Source: Pseudomonadota bacterium | GTDB lineage: Bacteria > Myxococcota_A > Polyangia > Polyangiales > JAFGIB01 | Assembly: GCA_017881185.1 (NCBI GenBank) | Contig: JADGRE010000032.1 | Coordinates: 1 to 36,341, forward strand | Length of the DNA stretch: 36,341 nucleotides | Direction: 5' to 3' | Part shown: positions 51 to 4,531 of the stretch, in pieces | Layout: each line of letters opens with the position of its first letter | How positions within the stretch are numbered: the first letter of the stretch is position 1 | Notes under the pieces: generated by a model | What the model saw: only the letters and a program-made list of their open reading frames with translations | The model's database searches: none | Told to the model about the DNA's origin: nothing | Program-made: the position numbers and the translations under genes

Positions 51-295
51 GCGCCTTGCCCTGCGCGCTCGGTCCTGCGCGACAACACATCAAAACCCCT
101 CGGCCAAACCACTAGCCGATCGAGTTGCACGCGCCTGGCCGAAATCGAGCATACTGGCCGGCATTCGCCTCCGCAGATGGGCGCGCGTATGTCCACGTGC
201 AGAAGCACGTTCGTCGAAGGTCGGACGCGCTTCGTTGGGCCACGGGATTACAAGCCCGCCGGGCGCGAGGCAGCTACGGAGAGGAGAAGCGCTTC

Positions 296-1570
296 ATGTT
301 CTTGACCTACCTGCAGTTCTGGGCTCGCATGGTGAGTTGCGCCGCGCGCGGTGGCTGGCGCTTCTATCTGTGGTGCGGCTTTCTGTTCAGCCTGATGTTA
401 ACCGGCGCGTACGCCTACTCGTTGCAGGCTCGCCACGGCATGGCGGTGACCAACATGGTCGACCAGGTCAGTTGGGGCGCCTACATCGCGAACTTCACCT
501 TCCTCGTCGGCGTGGCGGCTGCGGCGGTGCTGCTGGTGATTCCCGCGTACGTCTACCACGACCACGCTATCAAGGAGGTCGTGCTCATCGGCGAGGTGCT
601 CGCGGTCTCGGCGATCGTGATGTGCCTCTTGTTCATCACCGCGGATCTCGGTCGGCCCGATCGCTTCACGCACATCCTGCCGTTCATCGGCCGGCTGCAC
701 TTCCCGGTGTCCGTGCTCGCGTGGGACGTCGTGGTTCTCAACGGCTATCTGCTTCTGAACCTGCACATCCCCGGCTACGTGCTGTGGAAGCGCTACTTGG
801 GCGAGGCGCCCAACCCCCTCTACTACCTGCCGTTCGTGTTCGTCTCCATCGCGTGGGCCGTCAGCATTCACACGGTCACGGCGTTTCTGTACAGCGGGCT
901 CGGGGGCAGGCCGTTCTGGAACTCGGCAATCCTCGCGCCGCGTTTTCTGGTGAGCGCGTTCGCGTGCGGTCCGGCGCTGCTCATCATCATTTTCAAGATC
1001 ATCAACCGCGTCACCACCTTCCGCGTCAGCCAGTTGGTGTTCGACTACCTGCGCCGGATCATGTCGTACACGGTCATCATGAACCTGTTCCTGCTGGGCT
1101 GTGAGGTGTTCAAGGAGTTCTATACGCAGAGCCTGCACGTGGCCTCGGCGCGCTACTTGTTCTTCGGCCTCGAGGGTCACGCCATGCTGCGTCCGTACAT
1201 CTGGTCGGCCATCGGCATGGAAGTCACGACGGCGATCATCCTGCTGACCTTCGCGACGCACCAGAGCTGGCGCCTCTTGCTGGTTGGTTGCGGCATGACC
1301 ATCGTGGGCATCTGGATCGAGAAGGGCATGGGCCTCATCATCCCCGGGTTCATTCCCGATCCGCTGGGCGAGGTGGTCGAGTACATCCCGTCGGTGGTCG
1401 AGACCTTGGTGTGCGTGGGCGTGTGGGCGACCGGCACCCTGGTCTTCACGCTCATGGCGAAGGTCGTGATCAATATCCAGGATGGCTCGCTACGCTTGGC
1501 CGGCGGGCGCGCCTCGGTGGCACCGCCTGCAGCGCCGCACGAGCCTGCAGCTGCGCTGAGCGCGCACTGA
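296..1570 (+). CDS. NrfD/PsrC/DsrP-family polytopic membrane protein (quinol-interacting subunit)
   Basis: ORF 125-1570; most plausible start ATG at 296 (MFLTYLQFWARM...). Many hydrophobic helices; C-terminal IEKGMGLIIPGFIPDPLGEVVEYIPS resembles DsrP/NrfD family proteins. Confidence 0.85.
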   Translation: MFLTYLQFWARMVSCAARGGWRFYLWCGFLFSLMLTGAYAYSLQARHGMAVTNMVDQVSWGAYIANFTFLVGVAAAAVLLVIPAYVYHDHAIKEVVLIGEVLAVSAIVMCLLFITADLGRPDRFTHILPFIGRLHFPVSVLAWDVVVLNGYLLLNLHIPGYVLWKRYLGEAPNPLYYLPFVFVSIAWAVSIHTVTAFLYSGLGGRPFWNSAILAPRFLVSAFACGPALLIIIFKIINRVTTFRVSQLVFDYLRRIMSYTVIMNLFLLGCEVFKEFYTQSLHVASARYLFFGLEGHAMLRPYIWSAIGMEVTTAIILLTFATHQSWRLLLVGCGMTIVGIWIEKGMGLIIPGFIPDPLGEVVEYIPSVVETLVCVGVWATGTLVFTLMAKVVINIQDGSLRLAGGRASVAPPAAPHEPAAALSAH

Positions 1571-1599
1571 CTGAGCATTCATCGCGACCTTCCGGGGCC

Positions 1600-1715
1600 C
1601 GCTGGGAGGGCGGGTCACTCCCGGGCTCGCGAGAGTGTCCTCGGCACAACGGCCGCGTGCACTGAAACCTCCCGGGCCTGCGAAACGAGCCCGGGAGTGA
1701 CCCGCCCTCCCAGCG
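1600..1715 (+). repeat. Hairpin element A: ~30-bp perfect inverted repeat with ~56-nt loop; shares core with element B
   Basis: GCTGGGAGGGCGGGTCACTCCCGGGCTCG (1601-1629) is the exact reverse complement of 1686-1714. Loop contains GGCTCGCGAGAGTGTCCTCGGCAC (1624-1647). Confidence 0.9.
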
Positions 1716-1849
1716 CGCTTCAGCGACGATGCTGCCGTCAGCGTGACCGACTTTGGCTTGCGCATGCGCAGCAGTTACCGCAAGCAACTGTGCCGTTGGC
1801 ATCAGACGACAACGCTCGCTGCGAGCCGCCGAGCCGCCAGCTGACTCAG

Positions 1850-2001
1850 CCACGACGTTGAAGCGCTTGGGGTCGGCATGTCGCTCTTGGGCTCGCTTTC
1901 GCAGGCCCGAGGCGCGTCTTGCGAAGCCGCGGCGGTCGTGCCGAGGACACTCTCGCGAGCCTGGGAGCGACATGCCGACCCCAAGCGCTTCAACGTCGTG
2001 G
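1850..2001 (-). repeat. Hairpin element B: ~37-bp perfect inverted repeat; shares core with element A in opposite orientation
   Basis: CACGACGTTGAAGCGCTTGGGGTCGGCATGTCGCTC (1851-1886) is the exact reverse complement of 1965-2000. Reverse strand of 1938-1961 is identical to 1624-1647. Confidence 0.9.
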
Positions 2002-2014
2002 GCCGACTGCTGCG

Positions 2015-4531
2015 TCAGAGCCCGAGTCGCGCGTGAACGGTGTCCATGCCGAACGCTTCGCCCGACGCGTGGCAGGTGGCGCACGACTCTTGGATGTTCG
2101 TGGGGTCGGTCGGGCTGATCACCGACATCGCCAGCGTGTGCACCTGCGTGCTCGTGGCGTCGTGGCAGCCGGTGCACGCCGCGCTGGTCGGGCCCTGGTA
2201 GGTGTCGCTGCCCGAGACGCGCGCCAGGTTGCTGTCGACTCGCGTCATGTGCGAGGGCAAGAGCGACGGCACGGGTAGGTCGAAACCACCTGCAACGTGG
2301 CATTGCTGGCAATCGCGACGATCTCCGGGGAAGACCACTTTGGCGAAGTCGTTGCTGCCCACCTGCAGCTCGCTCGTACCCGATTCGCCGGTGTGGATGC
2401 GGTGCACCATGTGGCTCAGGCGCAAGCTGGCGGTGAGCTTGGTGGTGCCGGTCGTCGGTGCAGGGATGTTGGTCGTGTCGGCGTTGGCGCCGTGGCAGAG
2501 CACGCAGTACGCGGCGTCGTTGCTGGAGCCGCCATGTGCGCCGAGATCCGAGTGGCAGCGGTTGCAGTTGGCAGTGGCCACTGCTGCACGTCGCGGGACT
2601 GCAGTGGGATCAGTGACTGCGAAGTACGCCACGTCGTTGTGGAACGGATAGCTCACGTCGATCTGCGTGTTGTCGGGTTTGGAGGCCTTGCGCTTGAGCT
2701 GGCCTTCGATGCCCACGGCCCAGCTGCCTGTGAGCGGGATCGCCGGCGCGGGAGTAGCGAGTGCGGTGGGGGCGGCGGAGATCTGCGCGAGCGTGCTCGC
2801 GGAGGTCCACTTGAACTGGCCCGGGTTGCCAGCTGCCGCGAGCGAGCCAGTGGCTCCGCTGCCTTGCGCGGCGTACTGCATCGAGCTCAGGTAGTCGCTG
2901 GTGGGACCTGCGAAGGTGAAGCGCAGACTGTCGAGCGCCTTGCCGCTGGCCAGAATGTCGTAGGGCGCACCATCGACGCTGACGTCAAAGGTCAGCACTG
3001 GGAATTGCGCGGCGCCGACGTTGGTCACGCCGACGATGTGCGCGGTGATCACCGGTGGCGCCGCCAGGAAATTGCCGGTCGTTGCGTCGCGCAGGTCGAA
3101 CTTCTGTGGGACCTGGTGGACACGCACGACGTCGGTCAGCAGCGAGGCGAAGGTCGACGTGCCTTCGGAGTGGCAGATGTTGCACAGGCCGTCGGTGGTC
3201 TGGACGCCACCCGAGTGGAGCTTCTTGCCTGCGGGAACTGGCTTCGCGAAGGCGACGTCGTCGTGGCACGAGCCGCAGTTGACGCGCGAGAACTCGGTCT
3301 TCCAGTGAGCGCTGTCGGCGCCACCTTGGTGGCATGCCGTGCAGTTCTCGAGCGGCTGTGGGAACACGACGTTGGAGTAGTCGTGGTCTTGGTTGTTGTA
3401 GCCGACGAGGTGGTAGGGCGTGCCGGCGCGCACGCTCGGCAGCTTCGCGCCGCGATGGATCTTGTGGATCATCTGGCGCATGTCGAGTGTGTTGCCGGAC
3501 TCCGGGTCGGCCATGCCGTCGACGTGGCAGGTGATGCACGAGCCGAGCTCGCGCTGCACACCGCCGTGCACAGCCAGCGTGTCGTGGCAGCCGTTGCAGG
3601 CAGCGGTGGTGACGATCTCGCGCTTCTCGGTGATGGCGTTGCTGTCTGGCCTGAAGTGAAACACCGGATTGGAGGCGTATTGCACCCCGGCGTAGGTGCG
3701 CGACGCGAAGGCTGCCAGCGTGTGGGTCTTGCTCGCGTCGTAGCTCGGCGGCAAGCCGGCCGCGAAGCGGTAGCTGTAGAGGCCGTGGGTGCTGTCGACC
3801 TCGGTCCAGGTGCCGCCGCTGTCGGCGGCGGGCTGCGCCGCGCTGGCCAGCACTGGCGCCACGCCACCCACGCTGACGCCGCTGACGGTGCTCACGTCGT
3901 AAGGCACGTACTGGCCCACGACGCCGCTGCTGCTCGACAGGTACGCGAGCATGAACCCGACGTTCACGGCGCCTTGGCTGTAGACGCCGAGCCGATCGAG
4001 AGGCTGGTCGGCCGCGTCGAGGATGCGCAGGCTGACCACCGGATGCAGGTCGGCCGGGAACGTGACGTTCAGGATCTTCACTTGCACGCCTGCGCCCACG
4101 ACGATCGCACCATGGCCAGGCGAACCCGGCGCGCCGGTCGTTCCGTCGCTGCCGTTGTTACCCGGTGCGCCCGGCGCGCCGGTCTTGCCCATGCTGCCGG
4201 TCGTTCCGTCGACACCATTGCTGCCGCTCTTGCCGTTGGTGCCGCCCTTGCCGTCGGTCACCGTCACGGTGGTTCCGTCGTTGCAGGTGATGGTCTTGGT
4301 GCCGTCGCCGTTGTCGTGGACGCTGCACGCGCTGCCGTTCGTGCCTCCCGGCAGCACTGCGGTGGTGCCGTCGCTGCAGGTGATCTTCGCCGTGTCCGTG
4401 GCGGCGTTTTTGTCGACCGTGCACGAGCCACCGACGGGACCCGTGTCTCCGGTGCAGCCCAGCAGCAGTAGCTGCAGTGCGGCGAAGTAGTTGAGCGTCC
4501 ACCAACCCAGTTGTACGGCACGGCGGTCCAT
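2015..4531 (-). CDS. OmcA/MtrC-like decaheme c-type cytochrome lipoprotein with collagen-like N-terminal region
   Basis: 838 aa; lipobox LLLLGC; Gly-X-Y stretch (GKTGAPGAPGNNGSDGTTGAPGSPGHG); 10 CXXCH motifs (CNGCH, CITCH, CTACH, CGSCH, CNICH, CNRCH, CVLCH, CQQCH, CTGCH, CATCH). Confidence 0.9.
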   Translation of the reverse strand: MDRRAVQLGWWTLNYFAALQLLLLGCTGDTGPVGGSCTVDKNAATDTAKITCSDGTTAVLPGGTNGSACSVHDNGDGTKTITCNDGTTVTVTDGKGGTNGKSGSNGVDGTTGSMGKTGAPGAPGNNGSDGTTGAPGSPGHGAIVVGAGVQVKILNVTFPADLHPVVSLRILDAADQPLDRLGVYSQGAVNVGFMLAYLSSSSGVVGQYVPYDVSTVSGVSVGGVAPVLASAAQPAADSGGTWTEVDSTHGLYSYRFAAGLPPSYDASKTHTLAAFASRTYAGVQYASNPVFHFRPDSNAITEKREIVTTAACNGCHDTLAVHGGVQRELGSCITCHVDGMADPESGNTLDMRQMIHKIHRGAKLPSVRAGTPYHLVGYNNQDHDYSNVVFPQPLENCTACHQGGADSAHWKTEFSRVNCGSCHDDVAFAKPVPAGKKLHSGGVQTTDGLCNICHSEGTSTFASLLTDVVRVHQVPQKFDLRDATTGNFLAAPPVITAHIVGVTNVGAAQFPVLTFDVSVDGAPYDILASGKALDSLRFTFAGPTSDYLSSMQYAAQGSGATGSLAAAGNPGQFKWTSASTLAQISAAPTALATPAPAIPLTGSWAVGIEGQLKRKASKPDNTQIDVSYPFHNDVAYFAVTDPTAVPRRAAVATANCNRCHSDLGAHGGSSNDAAYCVLCHGANADTTNIPAPTTGTTKLTASLRLSHMVHRIHTGESGTSELQVGSNDFAKVVFPGDRRDCQQCHVAGGFDLPVPSLLPSHMTRVDSNLARVSGSDTYQGPTSAACTGCHDATSTQVHTLAMSVISPTDPTNIQESCATCHASGEAFGMDTVHARLGL

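Follow-up and report, generated by a model that had tools for sequence, protein, structure and literature searches.

Paired-hairpin repeats in the Polyangiales that combine conserved cores with variable, compensated outer stems

We report two families of dispersed repeats, F1 and F2, which on balance are probably non-autonomous, REPIN/MITE-like paired-hairpin elements mobilised by a putative enzyme. F1 was found in the window, that is, the whole stretch of 36,341 nucleotides analysed here. F2 is an undescribed hairpin-element family across the order Polyangiales and is more interesting than the window element itself, as its units truly combine a conserved three-way-junction core with copy-specific, compensated outer stems.

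Results

Two window hairpins form one repeat

The window belongs to genome G000, that of a soil bacterium from the Sandaracinaceae, a family within the Polyangiales (Myxococcota). It carries two long hairpins where a preliminary description of this DNA had located them: hairpin A (1597-1718; type-1 arms 1597-1629 and 1686-1718, 33 nt, 97% complementary) and hairpin B (1850-2001; type-2 arms 1850-1896 and 1955-2001, 47 nt, 94% complementary). Their fold z-scores are -8.6 and -12.9, and none of 200 shuffled sequences was equally stable. Both stems are complementary as described, although near-perfectly and not perfectly. A common core lies on opposite strands of the two hairpins, as had also been reported. 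More specifically, in hairpin A one conserved core half, GGCTCGCGAGAGTGTCCTCGGCACAACGGCCGCG, occupies 1625-1657 and the second, CGGGCCTGCGAAACGAGCC, 1673-1691, both on the plus strand; in hairpin B the halves are read on the minus strand at 1890-1909 (CGGGCCTGCGAAAGCGAGCC) and at 1934-1961, the latter including CGCGAGAGTGTCCTCGGCAC (1938-1957). This 20-nt core, CGCGAGAGTGTCCTCGGCAC, is repeated about 20 times in the 6-Mb genome G000 (at most 2 mismatches). The outer stems of A and B had been called unrelated; instead, the inverted match between the hairpins runs over 54 nt at 85% and takes in the outer arms. The arm types GGGGCGTGTTGGGAGGGCGGGTCGCTCCCG (type 1) and GGGGCGCTTGGGGTCGGCAGGTCGCTCCCG (type 2) align without gaps and are homologous.

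Two complete copies in the same genome (C318:1231-1662 and C248:442-868) carry both hairpin types in the inverted arrangement of the window, separated by about 300 bp and with shared ends, which indicates that A and B are the two halves of one repeat of about 430 bp, F1. The window holds a composite copy (1571-2001) made of a terminal repeat, the type-1 hairpin, a middle and the inverted type-2 hairpin, with boundaries taken from an all-against-all comparison of copies. The left terminal inverted repeat (1572-1599, plus strand; TGAGCATTCATCGCGACCTTCCGGGGCC) is shared with other copies; its inverted partner has been lost in the window and is present in C318 and C248. Between the hairpins lies a middle segment of about 130 bp (1719-1849), where other copies have TGTCAGCTGACA, with CACGCTGAC beside the hairpin. 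Outside the hairpins, the two ends of complete copies (e.g., C248) carry variants of GAGCATTCATCGCAASCTGCCGGGGCG as an inverted pair, and certain copies terminate in TGGCGAACGG.

In total, DNA comparison located about 30 dispersed F1 loci in G000, a count that takes in fragments. Among the derivatives, C88, C196 and C220 have lost one hairpin, and C176 has lost both while keeping its ends. Minimal copies (C360, C321 and C343) combine a left arm of type 2 with a right arm of type 1; C343 is without the core, and the arms of C360 and C321 are unmatched. The loci, shared terminal repeats and derivatives support, for F1, the earlier suggestion of a mobile or recombination-generated palindromic element. 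Inspection by eye revealed no target-site duplication flanking C248, C176, C152 and C266, copies with uncertain boundaries. TGGCGAACGG was considered as an element end with such a duplication; the end is common to F1 and F2, but no duplication was seen.

Two further repeats were seen around these loci. A palindromic motif similar to TACAACACARYGTTGYA recurs within or close to many copies of both families in G000 (L065 1033, L072 1333, L073 1554, L076 919, L183 1803, L185 1806, L198 1618). Another repeat, at L077 847-988 (G000:C259), is about 85% identical to several sites on contigs of genome G002 (L134, L144, L146).

Gene context and carriers of F1

Upstream of the window element is an NrfD family gene (125-1570, plus strand; Pfam PF03916, E 6e-37), and downstream a convergent gene for an MtrC/MtrF-like multihaem cytochrome (2015-4531, minus strand; Pfam PF22113, E 1e-48). 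Hairpin A directly follows the stop of the first and hairpin B that of the second, in agreement with the preliminary description. The core also has the same orientation relative to each gene, as noted there, but this follows from the inverted layout of the pair and carries no additional information. Elsewhere the context is mixed: by a simple, heuristic codon-usage gene caller, 7 F1 sites lie between divergent genes, 6 between convergent and 11 between tandem genes, with 6 unresolved. Some divergent sites have Pfam support, for example C248 between cyclophilin and ABC transporter genes, and the tested genes that flank the elements vary between copies. Within 1500-2100 of the window, 0 sites resemble an intrinsic terminator (a G+C-rich stem followed by a T run), and the window element has no promoter-like site. 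The mixed gene context, together with the lack of terminator- or promoter-like sites, removes a general 3'-end role of F1. An Rfam scan of the F1 loci gave nothing at the gathering cut-off; sub-threshold matches, mostly to microRNA hairpin models, were all that was obtained there and likewise at the F2 loci.

With a covariance model, F1 was detected in 2 of the 318 genomes of the class, both from the same genus; with at most 11 candidates scored per genome, the counts are lower bounds, and the genomes compared are mostly draft assemblies. The second carrier, G002, has one copy. None was found in phage and plasmid records, and no transposase or HUH protein is encoded among the flanking genes of the elements examined. 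The comparison with G002 yielded no clean empty site: F1 is absent beside its ortholog of the window cytochrome gene, and the ortholog has a different neighbour (synteny differs). A stretch of G000 (C373:30400-32900, L086) that holds an F1 copy is 93-97% identical to G002:C119 (L133), against a match of only 67% for the cytochrome ortholog. As the stretch is so much more alike, reflecting either recent transfer or a misbinned contig, the shared copy is not counted as evidence of long conservation.

F1 arms change together

The F1 arm types are not unique to single copies, each recurring on many contigs, and left and right arms co-vary. In 13 copies of the type-2 arms (columns 7-28) we counted 15 left-right mismatches, compared with a mean of 30.7 when right arms were shuffled among copies (0 of 20000 shuffles as low); in 7 copies of the type-1 arms there were 7, compared with 12.2 (p 0.05). 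Transversions (C to G, G to T) are among the changes found in both arms; F1 copies share ancestry, so that not all arm changes are independent events. At the outer end of hairpin B (1988-2001), other type-2 copies have GCAAGCTGCCGGGG, whereas B has CTTCAACGTCGTGG, the complement of its own inner flank (1850-1863). The outermost 14 bp of B thus look like a recopy of their own partner arm, a single case read off the alignment.

A sister family with a three-way junction

Sites with TGGCGAACGG led to the second family in G000, F2, with loci at C152:9730-10297 (L185), C266:48505-49083 (L194) and at least 12 more. The paired inverted layout of F1 recurs in F2 (C152 and C266 in G000; C338 in G002), and several middles of both families have TGTCAGCTGACA and (C/G)ACGCTGAC in common. 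With this layout, the common end and the middle motifs, F1 and F2 are best explained as sister families that belong together. The F2 unit folds into a three-way junction formed by an outer stem, a GTGCCAA..TTGGCGC arm and a CTTGCGCGGC..GCCGCNTCTGCAAG arm. Taken together, the 17 F2 stems of G000 have 20 mismatches against 518 Watson-Crick pairs, and roughly half of these stems are perfect; G-U intermediates are few, and the mean identity of the arm sequences is only 54%. A conserved core with unrelated, compensated stems, which had been proposed for A and B, is therefore wrong for that pair and right for F2 and its relatives across the order. Overall, the earlier observation is partly confirmed and its interpretation partly supported.

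A covariance model of the unit, R1, identified F2-like units in 25 of 184 Polyangiales genomes; the carriers span several families and often have many copies. Most carriers belong to family f5, above all to genus g8, where as many as 16 copies were scored in a genome; 16 was also the most candidates scored per genome, which makes the counts lower bounds. Across 74 matches, in an alignment that was fitted to the model and so favours the structure, the covariation score was 0.542, compared with 0.137 for shuffled and at most 0.089 for slid alignments. On the window F1 element R1 gives 16-25 bits (E 0.02-0.7), as any long stem scores; F1 was rejected as a member of F2, R1 not being specific on F1 and the F2 core being absent from it. 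A loose pattern matched at least 120 viral contigs, and 0 of the 80 loci listed score with the F2 model. In G074, two inverted F2 copies are separated by 5 kb; the interval was considered as an autonomous element and rejected: it holds SRP54, HEAT and HAMP genes and two ORFs lacking a Pfam match, and no transposase.

In genus g8, F2 copies favour gaps between convergent genes. Copies in G038 (L250, L252, L253 and L254) are intergenic and lie amid other tandem and dispersed repeats, e.g., TTGGCGGCGCTTCGCGCCGGGCTTCGCCCTTCGGGCTCGCG. At L265, also in g8, additional inverted sequences of about 35 bp (ATCGGAGAAAGTCTCGCGACGGGCGTGCTCGCG) enclose the hairpin up- and downstream, which suggests that outer terminal repeats exist in g8 too.

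Strand bias in the stems

Mutation and template switching are strand-symmetric, so that G·T and A·C should be equally frequent if nothing else acts on the stems. In the F2 stems of genus g8, we counted 61 cells with G·T and a single one with A·C; in distinct contexts the numbers are 41 and 1 (p 2e-11). The g8 matches came from a structure model that slightly favours G·U, and their scores far exceeded the cut-off. This excess implies that selection apparently acts there on a single-stranded fold formed by one of the strands, either as RNA or as ssDNA. The bias is significant in g8 only and weak in G000, with 7 G·T to 2 A·C for F2 stems and 13 to 5 for F1, both in distinct contexts, the F1 excess being on the strand that is minus for A and plus for B. 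In F1 and F2 composites, both favoured strands read outward from the middle.

Discussion

The reading of F1 and F2 as mobile elements draws on the roughly 30 F1 loci with shared ends, including copies that keep these ends after losing one hairpin (C88) or both (C176). It also draws on the co-variation of the arms, the outer 14 bp of B, the layout, model and covariation of F2, the strand bias in g8 and the varied neighbouring genes. In the mechanism we propose, an enzyme encoded elsewhere would recognise the folded, single-stranded form of the hairpins and spread the element between genes, as is thought for RAYT transposases with REPINs. The conserved core would be the part recognised, and the outer stem would act as a structural clamp that needs pairing and no fixed sequence. 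Pairing would be held by selection on the single-stranded fold, probably assisted by template switching that uses one arm to recopy its partner. Against mobility stand the lack of a target-site duplication, of a clean empty site and of a flanking transposase in our data, and the g8 preference for convergent gaps, which need not follow from neutral mobility. More tentatively, F1 and F2 might represent a new class of mobile element. Each end would then encode a branched fold of a single strand, RNA or ssDNA, in which the core is conserved and the outer stem varies freely but is always paired. This stem may be renewed from a single arm whenever the element transposes or is replicated, giving each copy its own perfectly paired stem.

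The chief rival, which we consider rather unlikely, is a host role: F1 and F2 would be multicopy genes for structured non-coding RNAs, their hairpins transcribed outward from the middle, their copies made by duplication and their terminal repeats incidental. The 41 to 1 strand-specific excess of G·T over A·C in g8, the strong covariation of the three-way junction, the outward course of the two hairpins from a common middle in F1 and F2 composites, the many copies per g8 genome and their preference for convergent gaps would all fit such genes. The window element, however, has no promoter-like site, C176 keeps its ends with both hairpins deleted, the tested neighbours vary from copy to copy and most genomes of the order are without F2.

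In g8, the same strand bias weighs against an improbable alternative in which the repeats are functionless DNA palindromes, kept near-perfect only through template switching between arms during replication (PMC8794818). A strand-symmetric process cannot yield 41 G·T to 1 A·C, and different families of the order share the conserved F2 core, even though the seemingly recopied outer arm of B, the transversions among paired double changes, the scarcity of G-U intermediates in G000 F2 stems and the unmatched arms of the minimal copies C360 and C321 speak for it. The preliminary description had also raised a gene-end device, either a 3'-UTR structure or a specialised terminator, which now appears very improbable. 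Hairpins do adjoin convergent gene 3' ends in the window and in most g8 copies, but of the 24 F1 sites with a resolvable context, 7 separate divergent genes, in some cases with Pfam confirmation (C248), no T run or terminator-like site was found and G002 has no such element next to its ortholog of the cytochrome gene. Judged by the refuting conditions set in the preliminary description itself, the window element fails as a 3'-UTR device, since the outer arms of its copies are conserved in two types and their placement relative to genes is mixed.

Long stems that change freely and yet stay paired are rare natural experiments on the origin of compensation. With dozens of differing stems around one core, the count of G·T against A·C separates selection on the fold from recopying of the arms. 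The family recurs across several Myxococcota families, is absent from Rfam and points to a putative enzyme or RNA-binding partner.

Several known systems resemble these repeats in part. Like MITEs and foldback elements, F1 is short, with terminal inverted repeats, many dispersed copies and deletion derivatives; in F1 and F2, unlike in those elements, each end has its own internal long hairpin with co-varying arms, no target-site duplication was seen by eye and the flanking genes examined include no autonomous partner. Template switching has been described for RNA stems and microbial quasipalindromes (PMC8794818), and one-step, multi-base compensation of hairpin arms is common to that process and our repeats. 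There it is a mutation mechanism in RNA genes; here it is at most an aid, since the strand bias shows selection on one strand. The CGTC- and GTAG-tagged REP superfamilies (PMC3733652) are likewise dispersed palindromes, often inverted dimers, and some of these REPs have no known transposase. Their stems are 5-13 bp with a terminal tag, compared with outer stems of about 30 bp and, in F2, a three-way junction; the F1 and F2 units are not short 20-40 bp units with a GTAG/CGTC end tag (PMC3733652). REPINs, inverted REP doublets linked to RAYT transposases (PMC3116915), share with F1 and F2 two inverted palindromic units and a spacer, dispersal outside genes and a non-autonomous nature, and compensatory hairpin changes are reported to be common in them, as here. 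The REP unit measures 20-40 bp, whereas F1 and F2 have a branched hairpin of 110-220 nt, in which, in contrast to REPINs, the core is constant and the outer stem variable.
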